64,000 nucleotides of DNA from positions 1-64,000 of the forward strand of contig NZ_JAKVIR010000009.1 of the NCBI RefSeq assembly GCF_022601975.1, in the 5' to 3' direction. Below the pieces are notes generated by a model, which was given only the letters and a program-made list of their open reading frames with translations, made no database searches and was not told the origin of the DNA. The translations under genes and the position numbers were made by a program. Shown piece after piece: positions 138 to 55,884 of this stretch. The DNA comes from Pontibacter sp. E15-1 (GTDB lineage Bacteria > Bacteroidota > Bacteroidia > Cytophagales > Hymenobacteraceae). Each line of letters starts with the position of its first letter. The stretch's first letter is position 1.

Positions 138-3100
138 ATGAAAACACGTTTACTCATACTGTTAATTCCTGTATTTGCTCTTTTGCAGCTAACTGCCTAT
201 GCGCAAGCGTGGCAATGGGTAAAACCAGGAGTAGCGTACACTAACTTAATCTCCGGCATTGATAATTCCAGACAACGGGTGATAGGTATAGAGGTGGATG
301 TTTTAGGTAATTCTGTAGTGGCCGGAAACTTTGAATCCAGTACGCTTAATTTCTATCCCTTCACGCTATATGGCAGTTTTTCGGGGACCCCATTTTTAGT
401 AAAGTATAGTAAATCTGGAATTCCGATTTGGGCAAGAAAGATTTCGAATTCTTCAGGGGTTGGCGGAAGGACATTGTCTGCTTTGACGACAGACAATAAC
501 GGGAATATTTATGTTGTTGGGTATTATAATGGGAGTATAGCTTTCTCTCCCTCCGTTACATTTCCTGACGCAACGTTAAATGGACCCAAAAAAAGCTTTT
601 TTGCTAAATATGATAAAGATGGGAATGTGTTATGGGCTAGAAATCTTGGCGTGGGTGAAATCTATCCGTTAGCTATAACTAATACTGGTGATGAAGTTGT
701 AATAACCGGAAAGTTTCAAGATACAGTCGAATTTGGTACGCAAACATTTAAAACTAATGATCTTGGAGATATCTTCTTAACTAAGTATGACTCAAGTGGC
801 AACTTTAAGTGGGTAGAAGTTATAGCCGGTCAAGATATAGATTCAGGAGAAGATGTAAAAATCGATGGTAAAGGCAATATCTTTCTCGCAGGAGTTTTCT
901 CGTGGCAGTTAGAGTTTGAAGACATTAGTTTATCATCCAATTTACCTAAATCACATTTTGTCAGCAAGTTTTCAGCAGGCGGTAAATTGCAATGGGCAAA
1001 GGTGTTTAATAGTAGTAACCATGAGAACTCAATTAGTACTGATAAAGCGGGGAATGTTTATCTCACAGGATCCTGTTCCAAGACTTTTAAAGTAGATGGT
1101 TTTGAAATAGTTAACAGAGGGGCGGATTACAGTACAAGTGATGTGTTCATCTCTAAGATCCATACAGATGGTAGTGTGGAATGGATTAAATCTTACGGCA
1201 GTTCAGCCAATGAGATTGGTGTAAGCATAGCGACTGACAATTACGGTGATTCTTTTGTATCAGGCTTTTTTAATAAGGAATTTAAGATCGAAGGAGATAC
1301 TCTGAAAAATGTTCCGTCTACACAGTATGATTACAAATTTGATCTTTTTTTATTTAAAATAGACAGGAACGGTAATGTCAGATGGACAGCTTCTGCGAAT
1401 TTAAACCTTTCTCAAGCATCCTTCGAGTATGTCAGAGGTTTGGGTATAAGTACGGATAAGGTGGGAAATGTGAACCTTTGCGGAGCGTATTCTAAAGTTG
1501 GTGTATTCGATACTACAGAGTTACCTAAAGCAAATTGCAATATTTTTACAGCAAGAATAGTTGATGCAGACTTTGTTCCTCCTGGCTCTGCCTTTATTCA
1601 AGGGAGTATTTTTGAAGACGTAAATGGAAACAAAGTCAGGGATGCCTTTGAACGGGGCATGTCTGATATAATTCTAAAAGCAGAACCTGGGCCCTACTAC
1701 GCAATCTCGAATTCTCAGGGAAAATTTTTTATGGATGTAGAGCCCGGGGCATATACTGTTTCACAGGTTCTTCCTGTGAGCAGGACAAAGATCATTGATC
1801 AGGTATACCCTGGAGCTAATCAGTCCTTTACTACTGATATATCAGAGTCAGGCAAGTCCCAACACCTGAACTTTGCCAATCAGGTCAAAGAATGTTCTCA
1901 ACTAACCGTTGATATCGCCGCTGATCGCCGCCGCCGCTGCTTCCGGAGCAAGACCACCGTTACGTATACCAACGAGGGCACAGCAGATGCCCAGGATGTG
2001 AAGATAAAGGTACTTTACCCCAAATACGTCGTGCCTATCAGCAGCGAGGTGCCCTGGACGGCGAAACGTGACTCGGCGCTGGTATTTGACATTGGCTTGG
2101 TGCGGGCAGGGGAGCGCAAAAGCTTTGTGATTACGGACTCGACTATATGCGGCAACGAAAGCATCCGGGGGCTGAGCCAATGCATCCAGGCCTTTATCAC
2201 GCCTAAAAGCACCTGTGTTGTCCCGAGCGATAACCGGGCCTATGCCAGTGTGGCGGTGGCGGGCAGCATTACTAACCAGGAGCAAACGGTGACCTTTTCT
2301 ATTGCCAACCAAGGCACCGAAGACATGAGCGACAGCACCTCCTATCGGGTATTTGCCAACGCTGCGCTGATCAAGGAGGGCAAGGTAATGCTAAGCCAGG
2401 GAGAGCACGTCACGTTAGAACTGCCTGCCCAATCCGTAACTTACCGCCTGGAGGCAGACCAGGTAGCAGACCACCCCGGCAAGAGCCGTCCCACGGCAAG
2501 TATTCAGCCGTCATCTGTTCCGGGAGGCGCGGATTCTATTGTAGTGCCCACGCCCATCGATGCTTTTTACCAGGATGATGCCGATGTCGATACAGATGTC
2601 TCCTGCCTAACCATCATAGACAGTTACGACCCAAACGACAAGCAGGTGAGTCCGCAGGGTATCACCAGCCGGAGGTATATAAAAGCCGAAGACGACCTGA
2701 AGTATCTCATCCGGTTTCAGAACACGGGCACAGACGTGGCCTACAACGTGGTGGTGGAAGACACCATCAGCGAGCACCTGGACATCTCCTCGCTTCGGAT
2801 TGGCTCCGCGTCGCATCCGTTCACCTATACCGTGTCGGGCAAAGGCAGGCCCGTTGTTACGTTCACCTTCAAAAACATCAACCTCCCGGACGATAAAGCA
2901 GACGAGCCGGGGAGCCATGGCTATATAAAATTCTCCATCGCCCAGAACCCAAGTAACCCGGACGGAACAGTGATCCGCAACACCGCCTATAACTACTTTG
3001 ACTATAACAGCCCGATTGCCACCAATGAAGTGGTGAATATAATTGGGGATACCGTGTTGGCCTCGCCGGTGCCCCTGGTGGTATACGAGTGCGGCAAAGA

Positions 3101-4043
3101 CGAGCCAACCCCGGCACAGGCAGGCGCGGCCATACAGTTGTGCGAAACCAACCAGGCCGTGTTGCAGGCCAACCAGCCTGCCAAAGGCAGAGGCCGCTGG
3201 AAGCTGCTCAGCGGGCAGGCAACAATTGTTAACCCGGAAAGCCCAACCACTGCGCTACAAGATATCGGGTATGGCGAAACGCTGCTGGAATGGTCGGTCA
3301 CCTTGTGCGAGGCGTCCTCCAGGAGCCAGCTGAAAGTTAACCGGTTTGCCCTGCCTCCCGCCCCCGGTATAACTATGCCCGACATCCAATGCGAGGGCGA
3401 TCAGCTTTTGCCTGTCACGGCCGAGGGGAGTAACATTGCCTGGTATGAGGATGCGGCGAAGCAGCACAGGGTGTTTGCAGGCAACAGCTTTATACCCACG
3501 GTGTCTGCCACTACCACGTTCTATGCCACCCAGACAGTAAACGGCTGCGAGAGCCCGGTAAGTGCTGCCGTTGTGCGCATTCATCCCAACGAAGTGGCGG
3601 TAACCGCTACCAAGGATACGTTGATTGCGCCGCAGGCAGATAGCTACCAGTGGTTTTTCGAGGATCAGCCGCTAAAGGGAGAAACGAGCCAGAAACTGCT
3701 GGCCAGAAACACGGGCCCATACCGCGTGGCAACAGTCACCAACGGCTGCGAAGCGCAAAGCAAAAGCGTTATGCACGTGGTGCAGTTGCCCACATCCATA
3801 CTCAAACTGAGCCCGAACCCTACGCAAGATGAACTATTGGTGGCATTTGTCTCGAACGCTATCGGGGAGGCGACCATTACTGTCAGGGATCAGTTGGGCA
3901 GGCGGGTCATGCGCGTTCAGGTCCGGAAAGCGCATACCGTTCTGGAGCAGCAGCTTGATATGGGATCGCTTGCGCCGGGTATGTATTTTCTGGATATCCG
4001 CATACAGCAGGAGGTATACAAGGCCAAACTGGTGAAGCTGTAA
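138..4043 (+). CDS. T9SS-exported multidomain beta-propeller/Ig-like protein
   Basis: Predicted secreted or cell-surface protein of 1301 residues. A TTG at 120 could extend it, but the ATG at 138 begins a clear Sec signal peptide (MKTRLLILLIPVFALL, cleavage after TAYAQ). Residues about 30-480 carry SBBP-like propeller repeats of the form DxxGNxYxxG. Residues about 484-560 resemble an SdrD_B/Cna-type domain (IFEDVNGNKVRDAFERG). Residues about 850-970 form a DUF11-like block (IRFQNTGTDVAYNVVVEDT), followed by two Ig-like modules (about 1075-1150 and 1160-1220). The last 80 residues form a T9SS sorting domain starting LSPNPTQDE and ending in KAKLVKL. The first 1.75 kb is AT-rich and the rest GC-rich, with a sharp change near 1900. 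Ligand or substrate is unknown. The domain and export calls are firm; the role is not. Confidence 0.88.
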   Translation: MKTRLLILLIPVFALLQLTAYAQAWQWVKPGVAYTNLISGIDNSRQRVIGIEVDVLGNSVVAGNFESSTLNFYPFTLYGSFSGTPFLVKYSKSGIPIWARKISNSSGVGGRTLSALTTDNNGNIYVVGYYNGSIAFSPSVTFPDATLNGPKKSFFAKYDKDGNVLWARNLGVGEIYPLAITNTGDEVVITGKFQDTVEFGTQTFKTNDLGDIFLTKYDSSGNFKWVEVIAGQDIDSGEDVKIDGKGNIFLAGVFSWQLEFEDISLSSNLPKSHFVSKFSAGGKLQWAKVFNSSNHENSISTDKAGNVYLTGSCSKTFKVDGFEIVNRGADYSTSDVFISKIHTDGSVEWIKSYGSSANEIGVSIATDNYGDSFVSGFFNKEFKIEGDTLKNVPSTQYDYKFDLFLFKIDRNGNVRWTASANLNLSQASFEYVRGLGISTDKVGNVNLCGAYSKVGVFDTTELPKANCNIFTARIVDADFVPPGSAFIQGSIFEDVNGNKVRDAFERGMSDIILKAEPGPYYAISNSQGKFFMDVEPGAYTVSQVLPVSRTKIIDQVYPGANQSFTTDISESGKSQHLNFANQVKECSQLTVDIAADRRRRCFRSKTTVTYTNEGTADAQDVKIKVLYPKYVVPISSEVPWTAKRDSALVFDIGLVRAGERKSFVITDSTICGNESIRGLSQCIQAFITPKSTCVVPSDNRAYASVAVAGSITNQEQTVTFSIANQGTEDMSDSTSYRVFANAALIKEGKVMLSQGEHVTLELPAQSVTYRLEADQVADHPGKSRPTASIQPSSVPGGADSIVVPTPIDAFYQDDADVDTDVSCLTIIDSYDPNDKQVSPQGITSRRYIKAEDDLKYLIRFQNTGTDVAYNVVVEDTISEHLDISSLRIGSASHPFTYTVSGKGRPVVTFTFKNINLPDDKADEPGSHGYIKFSIAQNPSNPDGTVIRNTAYNYFDYNSPIATNEVVNIIGDTVLASPVPLVVYECGKDEPTPAQAGAAIQLCETNQAVLQANQPAKGRGRWKLLSGQATIVNPESPTTALQDIGYGETLLEWSVTLCEASSRSQLKVNRFALPPAPGITMPDIQCEGDQLLPVTAEGSNIAWYEDAAKQHRVFAGNSFIPTVSATTTFYATQTVNGCESPVSAAVVRIHPNEVAVTATKDTLIAPQADSYQWFFEDQPLKGETSQKLLARNTGPYRVATVTNGCEAQSKSVMHVVQLPTSILKLSPNPTQDELLVAFVSNAIGEATITVRDQLGRRVMRVQVRKAHTVLEQQLDMGSLAPGMYFLDIRIQQEVYKAKLVKL

Positions 4044-4100
4044 CATTTCTGTGCGAATCCGCTTATAGGAAAATAGTGCTGTTATTTTAACCCCCTTGCG

Positions 4101-5390
4101 ATGAACAAGATTATACTTCCTGAGCTTCCTGTCTTAGACGACTTCGATCTATACCTCACCTTCCTCCGGACAAACCAGCAGGTGTCCGTTACCGGGAGCA
4201 GCGCGCATCTGAAACAGGCAGACCTGTTCCGGCTGAACCCGGAGATGCACTTCCAGGCCGCTTGGGTGACCAATAAAAGCAGGCAGCCGCAGTACCCTTT
4301 GCTCGACTTCTTCTATCAGGTGGTGATCGCCGGTAAGCTGGCGCGGGTGCACCACGAGAAAAAAGGCGTATACCTGAAAGTGAATCCCGAGCAATTGGAG
4401 AAGTATGACCTGATGACGCGCACCGAACGCTACTTTTTTCTGCTGGAGACGTTGTGGTGCCACCTCAATTGGGAAGAGCTGACAGGTGCCCGGAGCCTGT
4501 TTTTTGCAGAATCAGTGTTTGAGTTGCTGGGCCTGATGGCGCTAAGCGATCCCGGACAGGAGCTGGAGGTGCAGGACAGATCGGTGCAGGTGCAGGCTGG
4601 CAAGCCGCCGCTTCATCTGTTTAGCCGGAAAGCGTATGAAGTGCTTTGGTTTCTGGGCTTTTTCGATCTGGTGCCAGACCACACGCTCACGAAGCGGCCC
4701 GAGAGCCATGAATTTCCATACCGAAAAATAGTAGCCCGCGAGTTGAGCCAGCACCTGGTGCCTGTGCTGCTGGAGCAACGGCCACTGGAAGCATGGAACC
4801 AGCCTTTTGACCAGGGGACTGATATGTTTGATGAATTGGAGAACATCTTCAACATGCTGCAGGACGTTGCAGGAGGAGAGGCAGAGGAGACGGAACCAGA
4901 GATGAGTAAACCGGATGAGCCTTTCATCGAAGCGTTTAAGCCCCTGTTTGCTCCTGAAGATCTGGAGGAGGATTTTTATAGCCAGCAGGAAACGTTTAAG
5001 GACGGTTGCTATACCCTTAAAGTGTCACTGTCCGGGAAGCTATACCGGACCATTGCCATCGGCGCCTCGGCCACGCTGGAAGAGCTGCACCTGGCTATTC
5101 AGCACTTCTATAAGTTCGACAACGACCATTTATATGCCTTCTACATGGATGGTAAAGAATGGTCGGACGCGGGCATATTTGACCGGCGCGGAGAACGAGG
5201 GCCGTTTGCAGATGAGGTACGGCTAGGCGAGCTGGATTTATATGAGGGCATGCGCTTTGTGTACCTCTTCGATTTTGGCGACTGCTGGCTTTTTGAGTTG
5301 TTGGTTCAGAAAATTGAACCGAACGTGCCCGTTACTGGTACGGCCACATTGGTGGAAGAAAAAGGGGATGCACCCGCCCAGTATCGGTAG
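4101..5390 (+). CDS. plasmid pRiA4b ORF-3 family protein
   Basis: Cytoplasmic protein of 429 residues. The last ~130 residues match the pRiA4b ORF-3 fold (YTLKVSLSGKLYRTIAIG, then TLEELHLAIQHFYKFDNDHLY, then YLFDFGDCWLFELLV), with the family's typical FDFGDxW motif. The N-terminal ~270 residues are a helical region that I do not recognise. No biochemical function is established for the family. The reading frame stops at TAG (5388) right after APAQYR, but the next seven in-frame codons encode EDEEEEQ before a TAA, which resembles the acidic tail often seen in this family. The stop may therefore be a recent point mutation that trims the tail. A small unknown gene follows 47 bp downstream. Confidence 0.8.
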   Translation: MNKIILPELPVLDDFDLYLTFLRTNQQVSVTGSSAHLKQADLFRLNPEMHFQAAWVTNKSRQPQYPLLDFFYQVVIAGKLARVHHEKKGVYLKVNPEQLEKYDLMTRTERYFFLLETLWCHLNWEELTGARSLFFAESVFELLGLMALSDPGQELEVQDRSVQVQAGKPPLHLFSRKAYEVLWFLGFFDLVPDHTLTKRPESHEFPYRKIVARELSQHLVPVLLEQRPLEAWNQPFDQGTDMFDELENIFNMLQDVAGGEAEETEPEMSKPDEPFIEAFKPLFAPEDLEEDFYSQQETFKDGCYTLKVSLSGKLYRTIAIGASATLEELHLAIQHFYKFDNDHLYAFYMDGKEWSDAGIFDRRGERGPFADEVRLGELDLYEGMRFVYLFDFGDCWLFELLVQKIEPNVPVTGTATLVEEKGDAPAQYR

Positions 5391-5437
5391 GAGGATGAAG
5401 AAGAGGAGCAATAAGGCTCATAAAAAAACTTATACGA

Positions 5438-5848
5438 ATGGCTAAAAAGAAATCCCCGAAAATGTGGCTGCCCACAACTGGCAAAGCTGTCAAGCCAAAA
5501 ATAGCGGAGGCACAGAAGCAGCAGGTGGAGGCGCAGTGCCAGGTGCTCATCCAAATGAAAAAGCCCGAGTGGGTGCAGCCGCCAAACAGTGAGTGGGGCT
5601 ACGTGAGCGATGTATATGGCAAGTGGTACCGCAGCTTCTTTTACTTCTGTGCCACCTATCGCTATGCGTCGCCAGATGCCATCCTGCCAGAGCGGGAGAT
5701 GAAATTTGCCCGCCTGGAGTATGCTGGTGCCAACACGTTTCATCTGGCTTACTTTCGCCATACCGGACAGTGGTGGCAGGTGTTCGAAAGCCTCAGCCTG
5801 CAGGATTGCCTGGAGGAAGTGGAGAAAAACCCGATTTTCTGGCCCTAA
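5438..5848 (+). CDS. conserved hypothetical protein, 136 aa
   Basis: Small soluble protein beginning MAKKKSPKMWLPTTGK. It is rich in aromatic residues and tryptophan (WGYVSDVYGKWYRSFFYF, QWWQVF, ending NPIFWP) and has a basic N terminus. There is no signal peptide or membrane segment and no motif I recognise. It lies 47 bp behind the pRiA4b ORF-3 family gene on the same strand, so the two are probably co-transcribed and may work together. Base composition matches the neighbouring chromosome. The gene call rests on an intact frame, its codon use and its position; the function is unknown. Confidence 0.65.
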   Translation: MAKKKSPKMWLPTTGKAVKPKIAEAQKQQVEAQCQVLIQMKKPEWVQPPNSEWGYVSDVYGKWYRSFFYFCATYRYASPDAILPEREMKFARLEYAGANTFHLAYFRHTGQWWQVFESLSLQDCLEEVEKNPIFWP

Positions 5849-5873
5849 AGCTAACAGTGCTCCTCATACCTCC

Positions 5874-5908
5874 AGACCTCACAGTGTCTGCAAGACCTGT
5901 GAGTGTCT
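5874..5908. repeat. 35-bp inverted repeat, left copy
   Basis: This copy is a perfect reverse complement of 6142-6176 (35 of 35 positions), with 233 bp between them. Each copy contains a smaller palindrome: CTCACAG, 12 bp, CTGTGAG. A diverged relative lies at 41491-41525 (28 of 35 positions identical). Confidence 0.9.
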
Positions 5909-5919
5909 GTGCTATACCG

Positions 5920-6001
5920 AAGCGGCTGTGCTATACCCAAGCGGCTATGCTTACCCAAGCGGCTATGCTTACCCAAGCGGCTGTGCTATACCGAAGCGGC
6001 T
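5920..6001. repeat. 18/19-bp tandem repeat array
   Basis: Four units plus a partial fifth, each starting AAGCGGCT: 5920-5938 (19 bp), 5939-5956 (18), 5957-5974 (18), 5975-5993 (19) and 5994-6001. Units 2 and 3 are identical; units 1 and 4 differ at one base. The array follows the left inverted repeat directly. Further right, a 17-bp direct repeat (GCTCTTCATCATACCCC) occurs at 6040-6056 and 6106-6122. The whole 5849-6210 stretch shows no credible gene. Confidence 0.85.
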
Positions 6002-6141
6002 TAATTATTCCAGGAAACGCTCTGTTATACCTGAGAATTGCTCTTCATCATACCCCGTAGCCACTCCCATACTCCGAAGACACTCACTAGCATATCCCCA
6101 AAGAAGCTCTTCATCATACCCCAACATTCCATCCTTCCCAA

Positions 6142-6176
6142 AGACACTCACAGGTCTTGCAGACACTGTGAGGTCT
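6142..6176. repeat. 35-bp inverted repeat, right copy
   Basis: Perfect reverse complement of 5874-5908. A partial copy of its outer edge (AAGACACTCAC) also appears at 6077-6087, 64 bp upstream of the same bases at 6141-6151, which suggests local duplication. The ABC operon promoter begins about 38 bp to the right. Confidence 0.9.
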
Positions 6177-6213
6177 TGAAGTTCTCTCGATGTAAAAAAA
6201 TCTCAGGCATTAG

Positions 6214-6243
6214 TTGGCAATACGAAAACTATTTCTACATTTG
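6214..6243 (+). promoter_or_regulatory. Bacteroidota-type promoter of the ABC/GntR operon
   Basis: TTGG at 6214-6217 and TACATTTG at 6236-6243, with 19 bp between TTG and TA, fit the Bacteroidota -33/-7 consensus (TAnnTTTG). Transcription would start near 6249, giving a leader of about 34 nt before the ATG at 6283. GntR autoregulation from an overlapping operator is likely by analogy, but no operator was identified. Confidence 0.75.
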
Positions 6244-6282
6244 TAGTGTACTATGTAACTAATACACTAAGCAAATGAGACT

Positions 6283-7134
6283 ATGGTTGAGTTAAAGAAC
6301 ATTCACTTCAGGTATAAAAAGAAGAAGCCGCTCTTCGAGAACCTGAACCTGACCCTGCAGCCGGGGTTTATCTATGGTCTGCTGGGAAAAAACGGCGCGG
6401 GGAAATCCTCGCTCCTGAAGCACATCTCCGGGTTGCTATACCCCGACAGCGGCCAATGCTCGGTGTTTGGCTTCGATGCTTCGGCCCGAAAGCCTGCCAT
6501 GCTGGAGGATATTTACCTGATCCCGGAGGAGTTTAACCTGCCGCCCATCAGCCTGCGCAGCTACGTGAAGACGAACGGCGTGTTCTACTCCCGGTTCAGT
6601 TACAACCAGCTGCAGGCGTACCTGGCGGAGTTCGAGCTGCCAGAGGACGCCAAACTCTCCACGCTGTCGTACGGGCAAAAGAAGAAGTTCCTGATTGCCT
6701 TCGGCTTGGCCACCAACGCCCGCCTGCTTATCATGGACGAGCCAACTAACGGCCTCGATATCCCGTCCAAGAGCCAGTTCCGCAAGATCATGGTGTCGGC
6801 GCTGGACGAGGAGAAGATTGTCGTGATTTCCACGCACCAGGTCCGCGACCTCGAAAACCTGATCGACAACGTGGTGGTGCTCGAGAACGGCAGCATCATC
6901 TTTAACCGCAACATAGCCGAGATCTCAGAGAAACTGGCCTTCGAACACGATGTGGCGGACATGCCTGCAGCAGAGGTGCTGTACGCTGAGGAAATGCGGG
7001 GCCGGAAAGCGGGCATCGTCAAGAACGCGGCGGGCCACGATGCGCGGGTAGATCTGGAGTTGCTGTTTAATGGCGTTATCCGGAACGCAGCCGGTATAAA
7101 CGAACACTTTGCCAGTTACAAGTATGAGTACTAA
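6283..7134 (+). CDS. ABC transporter ATP-binding protein (YtrB-like)
   Basis: ATPase subunit of an ABC-2 type transporter, 283 residues. It has Walker A GLLGKNGAGKSSLLKH (about residues 33-48), a signature region LSYGQKKK, Walker B RLLIMDEPTNGLD, and the switch histidine in VVISTHQVRDL. The C-terminal ~70 residues are an extension typical of YtrB/CcmA-like subunits. It is the first gene of a four- or five-gene operon that also encodes a permease and a GntR/YtrA regulator. By family analogy such operons respond to cell-envelope stress, but the substrate is unknown. Its last codons overlap the start of the next small gene by 11 bp, which indicates translational coupling. Confidence 0.9.
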   Translation: MVELKNIHFRYKKKKPLFENLNLTLQPGFIYGLLGKNGAGKSSLLKHISGLLYPDSGQCSVFGFDASARKPAMLEDIYLIPEEFNLPPISLRSYVKTNGVFYSRFSYNQLQAYLAEFELPEDAKLSTLSYGQKKKFLIAFGLATNARLLIMDEPTNGLDIPSKSQFRKIMVSALDEEKIVVISTHQVRDLENLIDNVVVLENGSIIFNRNIAEISEKLAFEHDVADMPAAEVLYAEEMRGRKAGIVKNAAGHDARVDLELLFNGVIRNAAGINEHFASYKYEY

Positions 7135-7318
7135 ACACACCGTGCGCCACCAACTGAAGCAGTTGGAGCTCTCCTTCAGCACTCCGCTAATTGCCATGGC
7201 AGCCCTTGCCTGTGCCATTCTGGTAGAGACAGAGCAGCTAAACTATACCTATCCGCTGGAATTGGTGCTGCAAGGCATTGTACACGATTCCGCTCTCCTA
7301 ACCATTCTCGTAAAATAA
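7124..7318 (+). CDS. small membrane protein, 64 aa, in ABC operon
   Basis: Begins MSTKHTVRHQLKQLEL at an ATG inside the end of the ATPase gene (11-bp overlap) and stops 4 bp before the permease gene. One hydrophobic segment (TPLIAMAALACAILV) suggests a single membrane pass or a small accessory subunit. There is no recognised family. Its placement between ATPase and permease with tight spacing at both ends argues that it is real and co-translated. A start 15 bp earlier (7109) is possible but less compact. Confidence 0.6.
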   Translation: MSTKHTVRHQLKQLELSFSTPLIAMAALACAILVETEQLNYTYPLELVLQGIVHDSALLTILVK

Positions 7319-7322
7319 AACC

Positions 7323-8060: not shown

Positions 8061-8061
8061 G

Positions 8062-8433: not shown

Positions 8434-8470
8434 GTGTGAAATTTATAAGTTATTTTAAAGCGCTAAAAAC

Positions 8471-8644: not shown

Positions 8645-8803
8645 TAAGCGTTTTTGGAAGTTCGTTTTGGAAGCAAAGCTTGCACATGCTTCAAAGAAAC
8701 ACTGCTGGTACAAGCGCCCTTTGCAATTTTTATCTCGCGCTCAGGCAACCTTTGCCCTTGCTTCCTTATCTATTAGGCGAACCTTCATTTAACCTATACA
8801 ACT

Positions 8804-9751: not shown

Positions 9752-9760
9752 AAGGCCGTT

Positions 9761-42148: not shown

Positions 42149-42160
42149 TAAAATTCATAC

Positions 42161-48447: not shown

Positions 48448-48483
48448 TTTATTAGGGAATTTTAAATTGTAAATTATCAGAAA

Positions 48484-49908
48484 ATGAAGAAACTTCTTAT
48501 ATGCTTATTCTCGCTGGTGTTTATGGCATCATGCGTAGATGACCTGGAAGACTATAATATAGACCAGAAGCGAGCGACGACCGTTCCTGCTGCTACCCTG
48601 TTTACAGGTGCAGTGAAGAACCTGACAGATGTGCTAACTACGCCAAACGTTAACACCAACAATTACAGATTTTATGTGCAGCATTGGACCTCAACCCAGT
48701 ATCTGGATGAGCCAAGGTATAACATGACATCACGTCTGATTCCTCAGAACGTATGGCAGACGCTTTACCGCGATGTGCTTAACGACTTAAAGGAGTCTAA
48801 AAGACTCGTGATGGCAGATAAAGTAACTGCTGAGAATGTTAAAAAGAATCAGTTGGCGCAAATAGAGATCATGGAAGTTTACGCCTGGTCGGTGCTGGTG
48901 AATACTTTTGGTGATGTTCCTTATACTGAGGCGCTTGATCCAACCAACTCTCTGCCTGTTTACGATGATGCGCAAACAGTATACAACTCTATCCTTGGTC
49001 GTCTCAACACTGCGTTGGGACAGATCGACCCGGCAGTGCTTGGGTTTAAAGAAGGAGATGTGCTGTACACGGGCAATATGGCGAAGTGGGTGAAATTCGG
49101 TAATTCACTGAAGCTGAAGCTAGGTATGGTTATCGCTGACGTTGACCAGGCACAGGCTAAAACGCTTGTGGAAGCTGCAGCGCCTAATGTGTTTACAAGC
49201 AACGCTGACAACGCAGCCTTTCGTTATTTGAGTTCTACACCAAATAATAACCCTATTTCTTCCAACGTGAAGGGAGCGCTTACAAGCAGAGAGGACTTTG
49301 TAGCTGCAAACACACTGGTTGATGTAATGAATAACCTGTCCGATCCGAGAAGACCGTTTTACTTCTCAACAATAGAAGGGAAATTTGTAGGTGGGCAATA
49401 CGGCTACACTAATGACTATGCAAAAACGTCAACAGTGAGCACTAAGTTAGCTGACCCTACTTTTGAGGCATTGCTAATGGATTATGCTGAGGTTGAATTT
49501 CTGCTTGCTGAAGCTGTTGAAAGAGGTTTTTCTGTTACAGGCACTGCAATGGAGCACTACAACAACGGCATTACAGCTTCGATCATATACTGGGGTGGTT
49601 CAGCAACCGATGCTGTGGCGTATATAGCGCAACCAGATGTAAACTACCTTACGGCTCCAGGTGAATGGAGACAGAAAATCGGTAAGCAGGAGTGGATCGC
49701 GCTTTATAACCGCGGCTACGATGCATGGCTGACATGGAGAAGATTGGATTCGCCAAACTTGTTACCTCCAGTAGAAGGGCTGATTGTGCCGACAAGATTG
49801 ATTTATCCAATCAATGAGCAAACGCTAAACGGCGCAAACCGAAGTGCAGCTGCCGCAGCGATTGGTAGTGATGAAAGCAGCACGAAACTCTTCTGGGACG
49901 TTAGATAA
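48484..49908 (+). CDS. SusD/RagB family substrate-binding lipoprotein
   Basis: Surface lipoprotein of 474 residues with a lipobox (LVFMASC, Cys 17). SusD features include the N-terminal DLEDYNIDQKRATTVPAATL and the TPR-like helices (NQLAQIEIMEVYAWSVLVNT, FGDVPYTEAL, then AKWVKFGNSLKLKLGM). It ends near KLFWDVR. It caps the SusC barrel and binds its substrate. A good terminator follows. Confidence 0.93.
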   Translation: MKKLLICLFSLVFMASCVDDLEDYNIDQKRATTVPAATLFTGAVKNLTDVLTTPNVNTNNYRFYVQHWTSTQYLDEPRYNMTSRLIPQNVWQTLYRDVLNDLKESKRLVMADKVTAENVKKNQLAQIEIMEVYAWSVLVNTFGDVPYTEALDPTNSLPVYDDAQTVYNSILGRLNTALGQIDPAVLGFKEGDVLYTGNMAKWVKFGNSLKLKLGMVIADVDQAQAKTLVEAAAPNVFTSNADNAAFRYLSSTPNNNPISSNVKGALTSREDFVAANTLVDVMNNLSDPRRPFYFSTIEGKFVGGQYGYTNDYAKTSTVSTKLADPTFEALLMDYAEVEFLLAEAVERGFSVTGTAMEHYNNGITASIIYWGGSATDAVAYIAQPDVNYLTAPGEWRQKIGKQEWIALYNRGYDAWLTWRRLDSPNLLPPVEGLIVPTRLIYPINEQTLNGANRSAAAAAIGSDESSTKLFWDVR

Positions 49909-49966
49909 TCACTCTAGCGACTGAAGTAGTATACGATCAATAATACTTCAATAGTATGCATCACGA

Positions 49967-49997
49967 AAAAGGCTCCCGGATTCCGGGAGCCTTTTCT
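49967..49997 (+). terminator. rho-independent terminator after susD
   Basis: Perfect 13-bp stem AAAAGGCTCCCGG/CCGGGAGCCTTTT (49967-49979 with 49983-49995), 3-nt loop. It ends the susC-susD operon. Confidence 0.9.
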
Positions 49998-50105
49998 GTT
50001 ATATATGACTGAGGATAAATTGTGAAGGCTGTACTTTGCTCCCGCACCGTTGCCTATAATGGCGGCAACTGCGCAAAAGCATGGTGTATATAAGGTGCAG
50101 CAGCG

Positions 50106-50822
50106 TTACTTGTAGATCAGAAAGACTGCGGGTTGCTTGTGTATGTCCGGGAGCTTGCCGCGCCATTGCTGGATGGTTTTGGTCTGGATGAACTCATGCG
50201 TGGGCGAGGTGATGTTGGCCGCAATGCACAGCCGGGTATCGGGGTGCAGCGTCTGGAGGAGGTCTTCCAGCAGCTTGTTGTTGCGGTAAGGCGTTTCCAT
50301 GAAGATCTGGGTCTGGTCGCGCTGCTGCATCTCTTTCTCCAGCGTGCGGAGCGCCTGGATGCGGTCGCGCTTCTCGATGGGGAGGTAGCCGTGGAAGGCG
50401 AACTGCTGGCCACTGAAGCCGCTGGCCATCAGGCTGAGCAGGATGGCCGACGGGCCGGCAAACGGTACTACCCGGATGTCCTTCTGGTGCGCGACCTTTA
50501 CTACCTCCGCGCCAGGGTCCGCCACACCCGGGCAACCCGCCTCCGATATGATGCCGGCGTCTTTGCCAGCGTCCAGCAAAGGCTTGAGTGATGCCTGCAC
50601 CTGGGCTGGCGTGGCGTCCTTATCTATCTGCACGAAAATTAGCTGCTCAATCACCAGTTCGGGGCAGATGCTTTTCACGTAGCGGCGGGCAGTGCGCAGG
50701 TTTTCCACGATAAAATACTGGAGGTGCCGCACGGTATCCACCACCTGTGGCGAGATAACCTTGTCTGCCGTGTCATCGGCCAGAACCGTAGGGATCAGGT
50801 ATAAAGTGCCGGTCTTTTTCAT
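50106..50822 (-). CDS. RsmI-like SAM-dependent methyltransferase
   Basis: Tetrapyrrole-methylase fold protein of 238 residues (MKKTGTLYLIPTVLADDTAD). It contains the SAM-binding pattern DAGIISEAGCPGVADPGAEV, VVPFAGPSAILLSLMASGFS and QFAFHGYLPIEKRDR, close to RsmI, the 16S rRNA C1402 2'-O-methyltransferase. Bacteroidota often carry a second shorter member of this family, so the rRNA target is not certain. A -7 box sits only 4 bp before the start codon (see promoter). Confidence 0.85.
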   Translation of the reverse strand: MKKTGTLYLIPTVLADDTADKVISPQVVDTVRHLQYFIVENLRTARRYVKSICPELVIEQLIFVQIDKDATPAQVQASLKPLLDAGKDAGIISEAGCPGVADPGAEVVKVAHQKDIRVVPFAGPSAILLSLMASGFSGQQFAFHGYLPIEKRDRIQALRTLEKEMQQRDQTQIFMETPYRNNKLLEDLLQTLHPDTRLCIAANITSPTHEFIQTKTIQQWRGKLPDIHKQPAVFLIYK

Positions 50823-50826
50823 GGGG

Positions 50827-50834
50827 CAAAGGTA
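50827..50834 (-). promoter_or_regulatory. -7 box next to the methyltransferase start
   Basis: On the minus strand the sequence reads TACCTTTG-CCCC-ATG. A perfect TAnnTTTG box ends 4 nt before the start codon, so the mRNA would start at or very near the ATG (leaderless). The -33 element is not clear. Confidence 0.55.
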
Positions 50835-50882
50835 AGGCTTTGTGCAGGATTACGGTTCATACCGGTGGGAGGGTATAAAACA

Positions 50883-50915
50883 AAAACTGCCACAGCTGTG
50901 AGCCGCGGCAGTTTT
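50883..50915 (-). terminator. terminator of the hydrolase gene
   Basis: On the minus strand AAAACTGCC...GGCAGTTTTTG forms a 14-bp stem with two mismatches (50883-50896 with 50902-50915) ending in T-run. It separates the hydrolase from the methyltransferase gene. Confidence 0.75.
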
Positions 50916-50933
50916 ATACGGGAAGCTGGCGAA

Positions 50934-51704
50934 TCAGTCGGTGTTCAGGAAAGTAGTCACCAGGTCATATACCTCGTCTGGGGCCTGCGCGTGTACCCAG
51001 TGGCCCGCGTCGGGTATGGTTTCTATCTCCACCAGGGTAAACAGGCGCTCGATGCTGCCATACATATCCTCCGGCTTGATATAACCGGATTTCCCGCCTT
51101 TAATAAACAGCGTGTGCTTTTTAAACGGCACGTCGGCAGTGATGGCGCCCGCAATTTCCTCATAATTATTGGCAAGGGCATCAAGGTTCATGCGCCAGGC
51201 AAAGCCGTTGTTTTCGGTGCGGTACAGGTTCTTCATCAGGAAGAGGCGCACGTCTGTCTCCTTAATGTGCTTGGCCAACTGTTTGTCGATCTCGCTCCGG
51301 CTTGTCACGCCATCCAGCTTCACCGATTTCAGCGCATCGATGATCTCGTCGTGGTGCGGCGGGTATGCCTTTGGGGCAATGTCCACTACAATCAGTTTGG
51401 TGATGCGGGTAGGGTATTTCAGGGCATACTTCATCGCCACTTTCCCGCCCATGGAATGGCCCATAATGGCTGGGGTTGGTATACCCAGTTCGTCCACCAG
51501 TTCCAGCACGTCGTCGGCCATCAGGTCGTAGGTATGCTCCTCGGAATGTGGCGAGCGACCGTGGTTGCGAAGGTCTACCAGAAATACGTTGTAGTGCTCG
51601 GCAAAGCGATTCGCCAGCGTCTGCCAGTTGTCCAGGGTGCCAAACAAACCGTGCAAGATCAGCAGCGGCTGGCCGTGGCCCATTTCCTTATAGTGTAGTT
51701 TCAT
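50934..51704 (-). CDS. alpha/beta hydrolase (YbfF-like esterase)
   Basis: Protein of 256 residues. The nucleophile elbow GHSMGG, an oxyanion segment ILHGLFGTLDNW, DLRNHGRSPHSEEHTY, and the late catalytic histidine in IPDAGHWVHAQAPDEV are all present. It matches esterases of the YbfF type that act on short acyl esters or thioesters; the natural substrate is unknown. It follows the selD operon with a 100-bp gap and may have its own promoter. Confidence 0.88.
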   Translation of the reverse strand: MKLHYKEMGHGQPLLILHGLFGTLDNWQTLANRFAEHYNVFLVDLRNHGRSPHSEEHTYDLMADDVLELVDELGIPTPAIMGHSMGGKVAMKYALKYPTRITKLIVVDIAPKAYPPHHDEIIDALKSVKLDGVTSRSEIDKQLAKHIKETDVRLFLMKNLYRTENNGFAWRMNLDALANNYEEIAGAITADVPFKKHTLFIKGGKSGYIKPEDMYGSIERLFTLVEIETIPDAGHWVHAQAPDEVYDLVTTFLNTD

Positions 51705-51804
51705 ATCGTCAGGGAGTGATAATCAAATAAATAAGATACAGTTTTCAGCTTACGAAGAAACATAAAAGAGCGACAGACTTAACGAACCCATCGCTGCTGA
51801 TGTG

Positions 51805-52854
51805 TTAAATCACCTTAATCAGCTTCTCTCCGTCGCGCTCCTTCAGCACGCCGAGCGGCTCGAGTTTCAGCCCGTTCTTCTCAAAAACAGCCAGCACTTC
51901 GTCGCGGCCGGCGGGGTCTACGGCTACCAGCAGGCCGCCGCTGGTTTGCGGGTCGCAGAGGAGGTATTTCTGTTCCGGGGTAAGTTCAGCCAGTTTGTGG
52001 CCGTAGCTGTCGAAGTTGCGGTGGGTGCCGCCCGGTATGGCGTTCTGTGCCATATACTCCAGCGCCTCTGGCAGTGCCGGCACTTTGCCGAAATACACTT
52101 CAGCGCTGAGGTTGCTGCCCTCGCACATCTCGGAGAGGTGCCCCATCAGCCCGAAACCCGTTACATCGGTCATGGCCTTTACCTGCGGCAGCAGCCCGAG
52201 TTCAGCCCCGATCTTGTTCAGTTGCATCATCTGCTGCGGGGCCAGCTGCGCATGCTCCGGCTTCAGGATGCCTTTTTTCTGCGCCGTAGTGAGCATGCCC
52301 ACGCCAAGCGGCTTGGTCAGGTATAGTTCGCAGCCGGCGGTGGCGGTGTCGTTCTGCTTCAGGTTTTTGATATCCACCATACCCGTCACGGCCAGGCCGA
52401 AGATGGGCTCCGGGCTGTCGATGCTGTGGCCGCCCGCCAGTGGTATACCTGCCTCGTGGCAGATGCTGCGGCTACCCTCAATCACGCGCTTGGCTACCTC
52501 AGGCGCCAGCTTGTCTATCGGCCAGCCCAGCACGGCAATGGCCATCATCGGCGTGCCGCCCATGGCGTACACATCCGAAATGGCGTTGGCCGAGGCAATG
52601 CGACCAAAGTCGTAGGCGTCATCCACGATCGGCATAAAAAAGTCGGTGGTGCTGATCACGGCGCGGCCCTGGCCAATATCATACACGGCGGCATCGTCGC
52701 GGGAGCTGTTGCCAACCAGCAGGCTCTTGTTTTCGGGGTAACTGATGTCGGTGTGCAGAATGGCGTCCAGCACTTTAGGGGATATTTTACAGCCGCAACC
52801 AGCACCATGGCTGTATTGTGTCAATCGTATTTGTTCTTCAGGTGTATCTTTCAT
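51805..52854 (-). CDS. selD: selenide, water dikinase
   Basis: Makes selenophosphate from selenide and ATP. The product has 349 residues. The N-terminal loop reads [15 protein letters not shown], with cysteine (TGC) where some species have selenocysteine, and the conserved lysine after it. The ATP-binding core has [20 protein letters not shown] and [14 protein letters not shown]. It ends the pdxJ-mnmH-selD operon, 4 bp after mnmH. No selA or selB is seen, so its selenophosphate probably feeds mnmH alone. Confidence 0.95.
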
Positions 52855-52858
52855 GAGA

Positions 52859-53887
52859 TTAAATTAAATGGTGTTGTTTGGCAAGCGCCACTACGCGCTG
52901 TGCATTTTCTGCGGCATCCAGACTGTCGAGCGGCAGTGGCACTACCTGCTTTTTCCGGTCCAGTTCATAGGCGTAGGTCTTGTCGTAATAGGTAAGGGCG
53001 ATCTCCACCATCTTCTCCATATCGCCAGTAGCAATGGCGTCCAGGGCTTCTTTCGTAGCCAGGCCACCCAGGCGTTTCTTTATTTTGAGGATGGAAGTCT
53101 CCAGGAGTTCTTTGTCGGTTTGGCAGTATTCCTCGGCCAGCTTTTGCACGCGCAGTTGCTTGGGCAGTTCCAGCATAATCAGCGGCGATTCCTGCATTCG
53201 GTCGTAGAGCGGCTTGGGCAGCACGATGCGCCCGATGGTAATGCTCTCGTCCTCGAGCCATACCGGTTGCTGTTCGCTCAGGCGCAGTAGCTCCATACCC
53301 AGCAGGTTCTCGAAATGCTCGGTGCTGGGTTGTTCAGGCATACCGATGCTGCCAAAGGCAGAGCCCTTGTGGTTGGCAATGCCCTCCAGGTCCACGGTTT
53401 GCTGGCCGAGTTGCTGCAGATGGGGGAGCAGGTCAGTTTTGCCGCTGCCCGTCAGGCCGCCGATCATCAGGAAGGGGCGTGGCTTCTGAAACTGCTCCTG
53501 CATCAGGTGGCGGTATTTTTTATACCCCCCCTCCAGCAGGTGCACGTTATAGCCCGAGAAGCTGAGCAGCCAGGCCATGGCCCCGCTGCGCATGCCGCCG
53601 CGCCAGCAGTGCACCAGCAGCTCTTTGTCTTTGGCCAGTTTCCCGGCCTTCTTCACAAACGCTGACATCTTCGGGCCGAACAGGTCCAGGCCCATCAGCA
53701 CGGCCGGGTCGTGGCCCTGCTTTTTATAGGCCGTGCCAATAATGGCGCGTTGCTCATCATCAAAAATAGGGAAGGAGTGTGCCTGCGGAATGTGGCCGAC
53801 CGCATACTCTTTGGGCGCGCGCACGTCCAGCACAGGCAAATGTGCTGCTTTCTGGATAAATTCTTCGATCGATAGGGTATGCAGCAT
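52859..53887 (-). CDS. mnmH: tRNA 2-selenouridine synthase
   Basis: Protein of 342 residues (SelU/YbbB) that replaces sulfur by selenium in wobble 2-thiouridine of tRNAs for Lys, Glu and Gln. An N-terminal rhodanese domain ([20 protein letters not shown], active Cys in [16 protein letters not shown]) is followed by a P-loop region ([15 protein letters not shown]) and a helical tail. Located 3 bp downstream of pdxJ and 4 bp upstream of selD, so its selenium donor is made by its neighbour. Confidence 0.95.
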
Positions 53888-53890
53888 AGG

Positions 53891-54604
53891 CTATTTTAAC
53901 TGGCGCAGGTATAGCTGGATAGTGTTCTCCAGCCCATAGTACAACGCGTCGCAAATAAGGGCGTGGCCAATACTGACCTCGGCCAGCGCTGGCAGGTTGT
54001 TTTTCAGGTATTTCAGGTTGTCGAGGTCCAGGTCGTGGCCGGCGTTAATGCCCAGGCCAAGCGCATTCGCTTTTTCCGCAGCCAGTATGTAGGGTGCCAG
54101 CGCCTGCTCCGGGTTTGCATGGTAGTTTTTGGCGTAGGCCTCGGTATACAGCTCAATGCGGTCTGTGCCTACTGCAGCGGCGCCTTCTACCATGCTAACG
54201 TCAGGGTCAACAAAAATCGAGACGCGCATACCTTCCGCTTTCAGCTCCCGGATGGTATGGGTCAGGAAGTCTTTGTGCGTGATCGTGTCCCAGCCGGCGT
54301 TGGAGGTGATGGCGTCGGGCGCGTCGGGCACCAGCGTTACCTGCTCGGGCCTCACGTCCTTCACCAGCTTGATGAAATCCGGAGTCGGGTTGCCTTCGAT
54401 GTTAAATTCCGTGGTCACGATTTCCTTCAGGTCATATACGTCCTGGTAGCGGATGTGGCGCTCATCGGGGCGCGGGTGCACCGTGATGCCCTGCGCGCCG
54501 AACCGCTCGCAGTCCTTGGCTACCTGCACAACATTTGGCCTGTCGCCGCCACGGGCGTTCCGTAGCGTGGCTATTTTGTTTATATTTACACTCAGTTTCG
54601 TCAT
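53891..54604 (-). CDS. pdxJ: pyridoxine 5'-phosphate synthase
   Basis: TIM-barrel enzyme of 237 residues that makes pyridoxine 5'-phosphate from 3-hydroxy-1-aminoacetone phosphate and deoxyxylulose phosphate. Motifs include [53 protein letters not shown] and [17 protein letters not shown]. First gene of the operon with mnmH and selD. A link to selenium is not expected, so co-transcription is probably coincidental or for coenzyme supply. Confidence 0.95.
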
Positions 54605-54776
54605 GAATATATAAATTTGATCGGAAGCGCTGTTTCCTGCCGCTGTATACGAATGACTAAATTAATGGAATTTTGTTTAACATGCCTGCCTATAGCTACG
54701 GGCAAGGCAGCGTATACACGAAGACCTGCGGTATAAACCGCTTTGACCAAACCATAAAACTCTAGCAAAAAAGACT

Positions 54777-55238
54777 ATGACATTAAAAGAACGCATCGAC
54801 GCTGACATAAAGCAAGCCATGCTGGCCAAAGAAAAAGGCCGTTTGCAGGCACTCAGAAGCATAAAATCACAGATCCTGCTGGCCGAAACCGAGAAAAGCG
54901 GTACTGAGGGCATCTCCACCGACACCGAGATGAAGCTTCTGACCAAGGCTGCCAAGCAGCGCCGCGATTCTGCCGCACTGTACGCCCAGCAGGGCCGCAC
55001 CGACCTGGAAGAAGTAGAGCTGGCCGAACTGGCCGTGATCGAGGAGTACCTGCCGAAGCAGCTGGACGAGGGCGACCTGCGCGCGCGCCTGCTGGAAATC
55101 ATTCAGCGGGTGGGTGCCACCGGCCCGTCTGACATGGGCAAGGTGATGGGCATCGCCTCCAAAGAGCTGGCCGGCCTGGCCGACGGCAGAGCCGTTTCCT
55201 CGGCAGTGGGCAGCCTGCTGAACAATACCGATTTTTAA
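54777..55238 (+). CDS. GatB/YqeY domain protein
   Basis: Protein of 153 residues with the YqeY layout: an N-terminal helix (MTLKERIDADIKQAMLAKEK), LQALRSIKSQILLAE, then the tail domain RDSAALYAQQGRTDLEEVEL and GPSDMGKVMGIASKELAGLA. YqeY resembles the tail of GatB that contacts tRNA, but its own role is unsettled. It is followed by a hairpin and then by cvpA. Confidence 0.9.
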   Translation: MTLKERIDADIKQAMLAKEKGRLQALRSIKSQILLAETEKSGTEGISTDTEMKLLTKAAKQRRDSAALYAQQGRTDLEEVELAELAVIEEYLPKQLDEGDLRARLLEIIQRVGATGPSDMGKVMGIASKELAGLADGRAVSSAVGSLLNNTDF

Positions 55239-55250
55239 TGTATAAACTAA

Positions 55251-55287
55251 TGCTTTGGAGCTCCTGAGCGGAGGTGGCTCCAAAGCA
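55251..55287 (+). terminator. hairpin after the YqeY-like gene
   Basis: 11-bp perfect stem TGCTTTGGAGC/GCTCCAAAGCA (55251-55261 with 55277-55287) with a partly paired inner loop; no strong T-run. Confidence 0.6.
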
Positions 55288-55365
55288 CTTGTTTAAGATT
55301 TAGCAGGAGCGTTAACTTAGTGAAAGGCTAACGTCTTGTGTCTGACATCTTACGTCTGAAACTAC

Positions 55366-55884
55366 ATGAGCACGTTTGATTTTTTCCTGGCAATCCCGAT
55401 TGCGTACGGTGCCTTTCAGGGCTTCCGGAAAGGCCTCCTGCTGGAACTGGTGTCGTTGGTGGCGCTGGTGCTGGCCATACTGGGCGGACTGAAGCTGCTG
55501 GATACGGCACTGCCGATGATGGAGGGTATGGTGGGCGACGCGCACGGGCTGCTGCCTTACGTCACGTTCCTGATCGTGTTCGTGGGCATCATCCTGCTGA
55601 TTCACCTGGGGGGGCTGATGCTCAAAAAAGTCATCGACTTCACGCCCTTCGGTTTCTTCGATAACTTCCTGGGAGGTATACTGGGCGCACTTAAGTGGTG
55701 CGTGGCCCTGAGCCTTCTGCTGTACGTGTCGGAAATGGCCGGCATCAGCGTGTCGAAGGAGACGGCCGCCGCCTCGATGGTATACCCCGTGGTGCTCAAA
55801 ACCACCCCGTACGCCCTCGACATCCTGAGCTATGTGCTCCCCTTCGTGAAATCCCTGATCACTTCGCTCAAGCATCATTTTTAG
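55366..55884 (+). CDS. CvpA family membrane protein
   Basis: Protein of 172 residues with four membrane segments (MSTFDFFLAIPIAYGAFQGF, VSLVALVLAILGGLKLLD, LPYVTFLIVFVGIILLIH and a late one in WCVALSLLLYV). CvpA proteins are linked to colicin V production and to membrane or envelope stress survival. The start is preceded by degenerate TCTTACGTCTGA-type repeats. The role here is not determined. Confidence 0.85.
   Translation: MSTFDFFLAIPIAYGAFQGFRKGLLLELVSLVALVLAILGGLKLLDTALPMMEGMVGDAHGLLPYVTFLIVFVGIILLIHLGGLMLKKVIDFTPFGFFDNFLGGILGALKWCVALSLLLYVSEMAGISVSKETAAASMVYPVVLKTTPYALDILSYVLPFVKSLITSLKHHF

Follow-up and report, generated by a model that had tools for sequence, protein, structure and literature searches.

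Related species of the genus Pontibacter use different dialects of one short motif, the core of which is the directional word GGTATA. In our judgement there is slightly better than an even chance that this motif is a genome-wide self-recognition signal whose candidate reader, a DNA-binding protein, acts most probably while DNA is being taken up in natural transformation. A narrower proposal, to which we give a shade less than an even chance, is pilus-free sequence-specific uptake, in which a putative envelope protein reads a password of 7-8 letters, transformation stocks the genome with that password, and shifts of the reader by one letter have broken the genus up into dialect groups between which DNA exchange may be poor.

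GGTATA is the top over-represented 6-mer of the window (the 64-kb stretch of DNA analysed here, positions 1..64000, whose G+C content is 52.6%, not the roughly 56% given in an earlier note), with 164 copies over both strands where an order-2 model predicts 45; these half-sites (86 on the + strand and 78 on the - strand) are dispersed across its whole length. The octamer GGTATACC, in which two inverted GGTATA half-sites overlap, is present in the window in 14 copies (mean 0.49 and largest 3 in 100 dinucleotide shuffles); the strong excess already noticed there by eye thus stands, with the count raised from 13 and the expectation lowered from about one. One copy lies between called genes (10435..10442). 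The others are within ORF 120-4043 (1802..1809), ORF 7323-8060 (7766..7773), ORF 9761-10324 on the - strand (9950..9957), ORF 16143-16757 (16619..16626), ORF 18326-19714 (18874..18881 and 19125..19132), the carbamoyl-phosphate synthase large-chain gene 22807-25647 (23610..23617), ORF 26603-29056 with a YfhO match (28486..28493), ORF 33671-36259 with DUF5686 (35079..35086), the TonB-plug gene 45235-48447, which the gene caller overlooked (46355..46362), ORFs 50934-51704 and 51805-52854, both on the - strand (51478..51485 and 52442..52449, respectively), and ORF 55366-55884 (55779..55786). The twelve GGTATA/TATACC half-sites in 56999..59920 are each exactly where they had been reported, but the region is just mildly dense, since the overall rate of the genome would already give about 6 sites there. 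The impression that ATA and GTA codons are concentrated in the motif was partly right; 121 of 1,087 ATA codons (11%) and 101 of 1,359 GTA codons (7%) fall within it, so most of them lie elsewhere.

In 464 kb of the same genome GGTATA is again the top enriched 6-mer (951 copies against 281, z 40, or about 2 per kb), which bears out the suggestion of a genome-wide iterated motif, and over 5.59 Mb of this genome GGTATACC is present 800 times against 55 for its reversed control. The palindrome, which had been taken for the unit, is not the unit. Counted on both strands, GGTATACC occurs 28 times in the window against 33 predicted from its parts, with no extra enrichment, and in eight related loci AGGTATAG is found at about 29 times expectation, outstripping AGGTATAC at about 9 times.

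Clear dialects could be assigned in 40 of 50 Pontibacter genomes, and there are four of them: AAGTATAA, AACTATAG, AGGTATAG and the window's own RGGTATRR. Among named species, P. flavimaris has AAGTATAA, P. populi AACTATAG, and P. indicus and P. roseus AGGTATAG; nine genomes are poor in the motif. In the richest genomes AAGTATAA reaches 7,030 copies, 88 times the 80 of its reversed control, AACTATAG 8,208 against 160, and AGGTATAG 5,222 against 102; the excess over control across dialects is 13- to 88-fold. The 8-mers reach densities of up to about 1.4-1.8 per kb; in three data sets the 7-mers stand at 1.8-3.0 per kb. The perfect 8-mer is 13-16 times as frequent as the average mismatched word (4.9 times in the window's own genome), and its count amounts to 0.54-0.67 of the sum of all 24 mismatched words (0.21 in the window's own genome). 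The AAC, AAG and AGG dialects form a chain of one-letter steps, and four genomes carry two dialects at once. A division of the species into high- and low-copy classes by GGTATACC (549-821 copies in 10 of 37 genomes and 91-249 in 27 of 37) was abandoned, as the dialects explain these counts instead.

The dialects largely follow descent. On a ComEC tree of 48 of the 50 genomes the dialect labels require 10 changes, against 26.4 when they are shuffled; the AGG genomes make up one side of a branch with support 94/99, and the four AAC genomes and three of the four mixed AAC+AAG genomes form a single clade, while the AAG label alone requires 4 changes. A tree of the TonB-plug gene groups P. roseus (AGG) with two AAG species at 100/100 support, which counts against the fit of dialect to phylogeny. 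At orthologous loci the 7-mer is retained above permuted 7-mers in 41 of 41 same-dialect pairs, and the reverse, lower retention than these controls, holds for 74 of 79 pairs of different dialect. Between dialects separated by one letter, sites are converted in place. From AAG to AAC, 53 of 268 sites (19.8%) are changed exactly at the dialect letter (control 0.25% of 1,206), and in the opposite direction 53 of 334 (15.9%; control 0.13% of 1,592); from AAG to AGG the figure is 178 of 774 (23.0%; control 4.0%) and from AGG to AAG 187 of 951 (19.7%; control 4.5%). The two-letter step between AGG and AAC gave 0 of 398 and 0 of 362 in the two directions.

Three stretches of putatively acquired DNA nearly lack the motif: a metal-resistance stretch of genome G018 has 9 motifs against 43-78 in eleven other 20-kb stretches, the mobile-looking first 20 kb of contig C1 of G029 has 3 against 42 near comEC, and the plasmid-like second contig of G001 (116 kb) has 2 in 20 kb against 23, 25 and 24. 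Counting against the uptake reading, G013 has a 26-kb contig with methyltransferase genes, and 3.6 kb of it contain 6 copies of AAGTATA.

The mechanism we propose would begin with a sequence-specific DNA-binding protein that reads the clade's word, most likely at DNA uptake. The cell would favour fragments bearing the word for uptake and for recombination into its chromosome, and alleles with the word would be copied over alleles without it, so that copies would accumulate wherever a protein or promoter tolerates them. If the specificity of the reader then drifted by one letter, the old sites, each one mutation off, could be converted in place, which would yield dialects that track phylogeny. 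We infer from the patterns above that the reader acts at uptake and that recombination is the driving force. The putative reader would sit on the cell surface as part of a Bacteroidota machinery that works without type IV pili, like the one that genetics has revealed in Riemerella.

Known DUS and USS systems depend on the PF00437 family of type IV pilus/T2SS/Tad ATPases. A profile search of 44 of the 50 Pontibacter genomes gave a full-length PF00437 match in none of the 44 (the control found 14 of 14), and every one of them shows weak matches that span about 40-66 of the 370 positions, with those in G033, G126 and G015 at most 1 bit above the curated cut-off. Type IV pilus uptake was therefore rejected as an explanation, and uptake would need other machinery. 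ComEC is matched in all 50 genomes, including those without a clear motif, and so does not track the motif. In three motif-rich genomes the comEC gene appears to be damaged or shortened: it has an internal stop in G009, which nevertheless holds 5,041 copies of AGGTATAG, and in G022, which shows the lowest excess among 21 AAG-bearing genomes, and in G018, the richest AACTATAG genome, its frame is 561 amino acids long against 702-736 in 47 others. ComEC has diverged further than five genes of its neighbourhood, chiefly on the AAC branch, with the changes spread along the protein. As a possible reader we leave it as a lead only, since it is also present in motif-poor genomes. DUF5689, to which one of the Riemerella transformation proteins belongs, has matches in only 21 of 44 genomes, with none in the window's own; the scanned neighbour in two of its loci (L215 and L223) is SusD-like, and a DUF5689 reader is thus unsupported. 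We know of no uptake experiment on Pontibacter.

An artefact of codon, dipeptide or composition bias can be dismissed almost entirely. Sites occur on both strands and in every possible codon phase at 4-9 times their number in synonymous shuffles; all stop-free phases and the gaps between genes are enriched, and dialects differ among species of similar G+C. Each of the six strand-by-phase classes of GGTATA stands 3.0-6.9 times above its level in synonymous-codon shuffles, which rules out a preference for codons or dicodons as the cause, just as the earlier note had argued from the use of all phases. The motif prefers non-coding DNA, with some inverted pairs closely spaced, and reaches its highest density, in each of the four data sets, in the gaps between convergent genes (18.8, 9.1, 6.8 and 3.4 per kb, against 7.1, 4.1, 2.6 and 2.6 between divergent genes); these non-coding densities are probably underestimates, since the gene caller omits some genes. 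Strand use bears on two further readings. Genome-wide the two strands are used nearly equally, although a replichore bias would cancel in such totals, and the leading-strand share of intergenic sites, with replichores taken only from the GC skew of single stretches, is 62, 57 and 57% in three sets and 51% in the AGG set; the lean in the three sets also counts against the uptake reading. A segregation signal, also raised in the earlier note, is unlikely in view of both figures, and strong KOPS-type polarity from ori to dif was not found in these intergenic shares. A Chi-like word, recognised by an AddAB/RecBCD-type exonuclease so that the cell's own broken ends are rescued and foreign ends degraded, would likewise be short, directional, species-specific and missing from putatively acquired DNA, and the modest leading-strand preference in three of the four sets fits it. 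Chi, however, has a stronger strand skew than the 51-62% that these approximate replichores give or the near-equal totals, and a lower excess and density than 13- to 88-fold and 1.8-3.0 seven-mers per kb; we consider this explanation unlikely.

The binding site of a chromosome-organising or xenogeneic-discrimination protein, selected site by site without DNA uptake, would also be retained at orthologous positions and be missing from putatively acquired DNA. But sites that number in the thousands, fall in any codon phase, crowd most in convergent gaps and are rewritten exactly at the dialect letter look more like drive than like sites that are useful one by one, and every site would have to follow the protein simultaneously; this too we regard as unlikely. 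Quite improbable is the idea that a solitary DNA methyltransferase and methyl-directed repair ratchet the genome to its site, as in a HIP1-like system, with the dialects reflecting different methyltransferases. In its favour, the cyanobacterial alternate HIP words are paired with matching methyltransferases (PMC4390886). The Pontibacter motif, however, is not palindromic, 20 kb of a plasmid-like contig are without it, and none of the four methyltransferase families examined can be convincingly placed in every motif-rich genome: of the 50 genomes, 31 have PF01555, 23 have PF00145 and 13 have PF02086, and PF02384 matches all 50, but in G119 and G006 at just 7e-5 and 1.5e-4, matches we read as RNA- or protein-methyltransferase kin. 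G119 has 4,958 copies of AAGTATAA yet no PF01555, PF00145 or PF02086 match. These four methyltransferase families were accordingly set aside as the cause.

The motif resembles DUS/USS dialects more than HIP1 or Chi; it would work like them, though we do not count it as a member of either group. Of the comparisons in the earlier note, that with uptake signals is thus better than that with HIP1, for which neither the lack of a palindrome nor the methyltransferases fit. As with the DUS of the Neisseriaceae (Frye et al. 2013, PMC3630211), there are thousands of short directional words per genome, in dialects a few letters apart round a fixed core (CTG in DUS, TAT in Pontibacter), which track phylogeny; some family relatives have no such word, and two-dialect genomes exist, as in Simonsiella muelleri, which carries two DUS dialects (PMC3630211). 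Unlike DUS (PMC3630211), the Pontibacter word belongs to Bacteroidota rather than Betaproteobacteria, has 7-8 letters rather than 10-12, and goes with no full-length type IV pilus ATPase in the 44 genomes searched, so that there is no obvious ComP-type pilin reader. It is at least as dense as DUS and USS, at about one per kb (PMC1626085), and shares with the Hin and Apl types of Pasteurellaceae USS a word common to many relatives, the subclade variants, the preference for non-coding DNA and some close inverted pairs (PMC1626085). USS use the two strands near-equally (PMC1626085), as the genome-wide totals do here, although the intergenic shares lean to one strand in three of the four sets. It differs from USS (PMC1626085) in that no pilus machinery was found, in that its flanks hold no AT-rich motif beyond one or two letters, and in its spacing, which is clustered (coefficient of variation 1.07-1.66, with a surplus of short distances) and not more regular than random, while USS and DUS are described as regular; this spacing is a point against the uptake reading. 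HIP1 of cyanobacteria has a similar density and alternate words that swap among relatives (PMC4390886), but it is palindromic, and no methyltransferase family examined accompanies all motif-rich Pontibacter genomes. Riemerella, like Pontibacter a member of the Bacteroidota with ComEC, transforms with ComEC, DprA, ComF, RecA and four proteins unrelated to well-characterised machineries (PMC8459023), and R. columbina favours its own DNA (PMC7965970). A difference is that for Flavobacterium johnsoniae and both Riemerella species the k-mer table of that paper gives nothing but A/T-dominated words (PMC7965970). Another is DUF5689, which is matched in fewer than half of the Pontibacter genomes searched for it (21 of 44).

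If the uptake proposal is true, it would represent a third, independent origin of such passwords, in another phylum and without pilus machinery, and would mean that they evolve repeatedly. To our knowledge no sequence-specific uptake signal is known outside the Neisseriaceae and Pasteurellaceae, and we found no paper in the open-licence literature that links Pontibacter with uptake sequences. The AAC-AAG-AGG chain and the two-dialect genomes would then make it possible to study by comparison how a genome changes together with the specificity, and to test dialects as barriers to gene flow; the word itself would be the one needed to make Pontibacter genetically tractable.

Beyond the genus, genome-wide counts were made of AAGTATAA only in other genera of the family and of GGTATACC only in other families. 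Across 76 genomes from the family's other genera, the count of AAGTATAA never exceeds about 2.4 times that of its control. Nine genomes from the order's other families showed no obvious comparable motif (20 kb of each was used, 5 kb for G052; G038 is dominated by another repeat), nor did two sister genera, of which 28 and 22 kb were pooled. Nor was one obvious in 31 loci of other genera, save for CAATGC, which is weakly in excess, 3-4 times, in the Dyadobacter loci.

The protein encoded at 45235-48447 of the window is 82% identical to a P. anaerobius protein, and the source of the window is Pontibacter (Bacteroidota). The palindromic octamer GGTATACC, of which the earlier note had found thirteen copies with about one expected, occurs 14 times against 0.49 expected, so the excess stands with altered figures. 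It is also highly iterated genome-wide, as that note proposed: the window's own genome has 800 copies (55 of the word read backwards), and GGTATA is the most over-represented 6-mer in 464 kb of it (951 vs 281). The palindrome is not, however, the iterated unit that it had been taken for, since it shows no excess past what its component parts predict; the palindromes that were noticed come from inverted pairs of the word, many of which overlap at a constant register (offset 2 or 3). GGTATG is likewise enriched (637 vs 307), and GGTATA is preferentially preceded by G or A and followed by A, then A; the local word is therefore approximately RGGTATRR. Several 6-base palindromes fall short of expectation in the same 464 kb (GGATCC, GGTACC and GGGCCC at 0.21, 0.28 and 0.36 of it, respectively), a pattern as under restriction pressure. 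A second, far rarer repeat family of this genome (stretches L002-L021 and the window) includes the 10-mers AATTACGAAT and AATTCGTAAT (16 copies each, 58x expectation) and AATTAGAAAT (13 copies).

Across 37 Pontibacter genomes (the window's own included), GGTATACC is present in 549-821 copies in 10 and 91-249 in 27, and some of the latter carry another word. These "dialects" share a constant TAT core and vary in the three preceding letters, for which they are named, and in those that follow it. The orthologous locus was read in 18 other Pontibacter records: 8 carry the AGG word AGGTATAG (23-36x an order-2 model), 5 the AAG word AAGTATAA (12-33x) and 3 the AAC word AACTATAG (31-71x); P. harenae has a weak, mixed signal, and no dialect word was found there in P. 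qinzhouensis. Genome-wide, 21 of 44 genus genomes hold 2,125 or more copies of AAGTATAA (13 to 88x the reversed control), against 1.3 to 5.6x in the remaining 23 and at most about 2.4x, as read from the count table, in 76 genomes drawn from five further genera in the family; AACTATAG has at least 2,000 copies in 7 of 50 genomes and 907 in one more, and AGGTATAG 2,823-5,222 in 12 of 50. Whole-genome counts and fetched stretches together assign a dialect to 40 of the 50 genomes: AAG 19, AAG+AAC 4 (G027, G033, G074 and G095), AAC 4, AGG 12 and GG 1, the window's own (G021 and G146 were called from stretches, without whole-genome AAGTATAA counts). Nine have no clear dialect, some with weak residues (G002, G007, G024, G025, G026, G028, G034, G142 and G147; G007, G028 and G147 are without a genome-wide AAGTATAA count, and G028 was judged on 10 kb only). 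G060, which the ComEC tree places as sister to the window's genome, possibly carries one more dialect, judged from only 20 kb (L191) rich in TATATA (94 copies, 4x expectation). Elsewhere, G020 has at least 39 AGGTATAG in one tandem array spaced by about 66 bases (C1:1944098-1946633), possibly a CRISPR or some different kind of repeat array; four genomes from other families of the order (G046, G049, G052 and G055) have GGTATACC at 6-13x the reversed control, with only 30-146 per genome; and CAATGC is weakly enriched (3-4x expectation) in each of the Dyadobacter loci L050-L055 and L059.

The words are sharply defined. The exact 7-mer is at 10-18x expectation in three data sets and its one-letter variants at 0.2-4x, the one exception being an A-to-G change at position 7 (up to 5.5x). 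The window's own genome is weaker and less sharp (GGTATA 3.4x), with perfect GGGTATAA at 4.9x its mean one-letter variant vs 13-16x in the other three sets. Codon bias is ruled out as the cause, as the earlier note had argued, by synonymous-codon shuffles of the called genes (706 sites vs 175 in the own genome, 296 vs 35 in G013, 368 vs 45 in G018 and 629 vs 69 in the AGG set) and by enrichment in the strand-by-phase classes. That all codon phases are used holds for every class save one in G018, which has zero sites because the word would put TAG in frame there. Called genes, at 1.6-2.0 sites/kb, lie below the gaps between them; densities in G018, G013, the AGG set and the own genome are 18.8, 9.1, 6.8 and 3.4 sites/kb (convergent), 7.2, 7.4, 3.4 and 3.0 (tandem) and 7.1, 4.1, 2.6 and 2.6 (divergent). 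These densities were taken only from gaps 20-600 bp long that are flanked by called genes; "intergenic" totals include coding DNA, since gene calling was incomplete (coding fraction 0.75-0.77).

Dialects follow descent to a large extent on a midpoint-rooted ComEC tree of 48 of the 50 genomes (without G009 and G022), which requires 10 label changes vs a mean of 26.4 for shuffled labels. AGG occupies one side of a branch (94/99), and the four AAC genomes share a clade with all but one of the four mixed ones (100/100); the AAG label changes 4 times and the motif-poor label 5. An earlier TonB-plug gene tree, which groups P. roseus (AGG) with two AAG species (100/100), counts against AGG having arisen only once; a move of the gene is possible, and we place no reliance on this tree. 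In pairwise alignments of orthologous loci from 16 named records, the word is retained above permuted 7-mers in 41 of 41 same-dialect pairs (for example 0.68 vs 0.14 at 76% identity) and below them in 74 of 79 different-dialect pairs (above in 5). Between dialects one step apart, 16-23% of sites, pooled over pairs that are not independent, are mismatched with the partner at precisely the dialect letter (controls: A/G step 4.0-4.5%; G/C step 0.13-0.25%, about 2 and 3 events), vs 0/398 and 0/362 for the two-step pair AGG-AAC. The window's own dialect is less clean: 20% of others' AGG sites are retained (control 15.7%) and 1.2% correspond to GGG (control 2.0%), as expected if its word takes A or G before GGTATA. 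From these alignments we read an inherited site set as having been rewritten position by position.

A drive by biased DNA uptake with recombination would account for such a process. Copies would build up wherever tolerated, specificity would be sharp, dialects would arise with old sites converted, and the word would be missing from DNA without homologues. By analogy the word would work like the DUS/USS uptake signals, and this much of the HIP1 or uptake/segregation likeness suggested earlier survives; a HIP-like or a Chi-like signal is the weaker explanation. DUS/USS systems have a type IV pilus uptake machinery and regular spacing, neither of which we found for the Pontibacter word, so membership is not claimed. 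Full-length PF00437 ATPases were found in 0 of 44 genus genomes searched (short weak matches occur in all, three marginally over the cut-off), which counts against an uptake drive. On the other side, transformation in Riemerella, of the same phylum, is described as depending on four proteins that do not resemble known machineries (PMC8459023), and R. columbina as preferring its own DNA (PMC7965970); therefore another uptake route exists. One full-length PF00437 secretion/pilus ATPase each is present in G065, G096 and G145 (other genera of the family), the only ones among 120 genomes searched. ComEC is not supported as the protein that reads the word, since a match is present in 50 of 50 genomes, motif-poor ones included; nor is DUF5689 (21 of 44). 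The comEC match has one internal stop in G009:C76:160505-161305 and G022:C1:2771217-2771876, and G018:C23:51507-52310 has a short open frame (561 aa). ComEC of the AAC clade (L170 and L196, from G018 and G144) is 50-51% identical to that of G013 (five neighbours, 83%), and its divergence beyond the neighbours' level is larger than in other dialects.

Putatively acquired DNA is mostly poor in the word. Only 9 sites lie in a 20-kb G018 stretch that encodes ArsR, MerT, a P-type ATPase, RND efflux and multicopper oxidase, vs 43-78 in eleven other stretches of that genome; contig C1 of G029 begins with 20 kb (SusCD, YhcG nuclease, RadC) that look mobile and have 3 vs 42 near comEC; and the partly A+T-rich L011 of the own genome has 21 vs 29-57 in the other nineteen. 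The second, 116-kb contig of G001 is presumably a plasmid, and 20 kb of it have 2 sites vs 23, 25 and 24 for stretches of the main one; a word-free resident replicon would be evidence against a bias of mutation or repair that affects all the DNA of a cell. A contrary case is a 26-kb contig of G013 that carries methyltransferase genes, with 6 sites in a 3.6-kb piece. In motif-poor G002, the second contig (L085, G002:C2:1-20000), perhaps acquired from an AGG species, has 14 AGGTATA per 20 kb vs 6 and 5 in two main-contig stretches.
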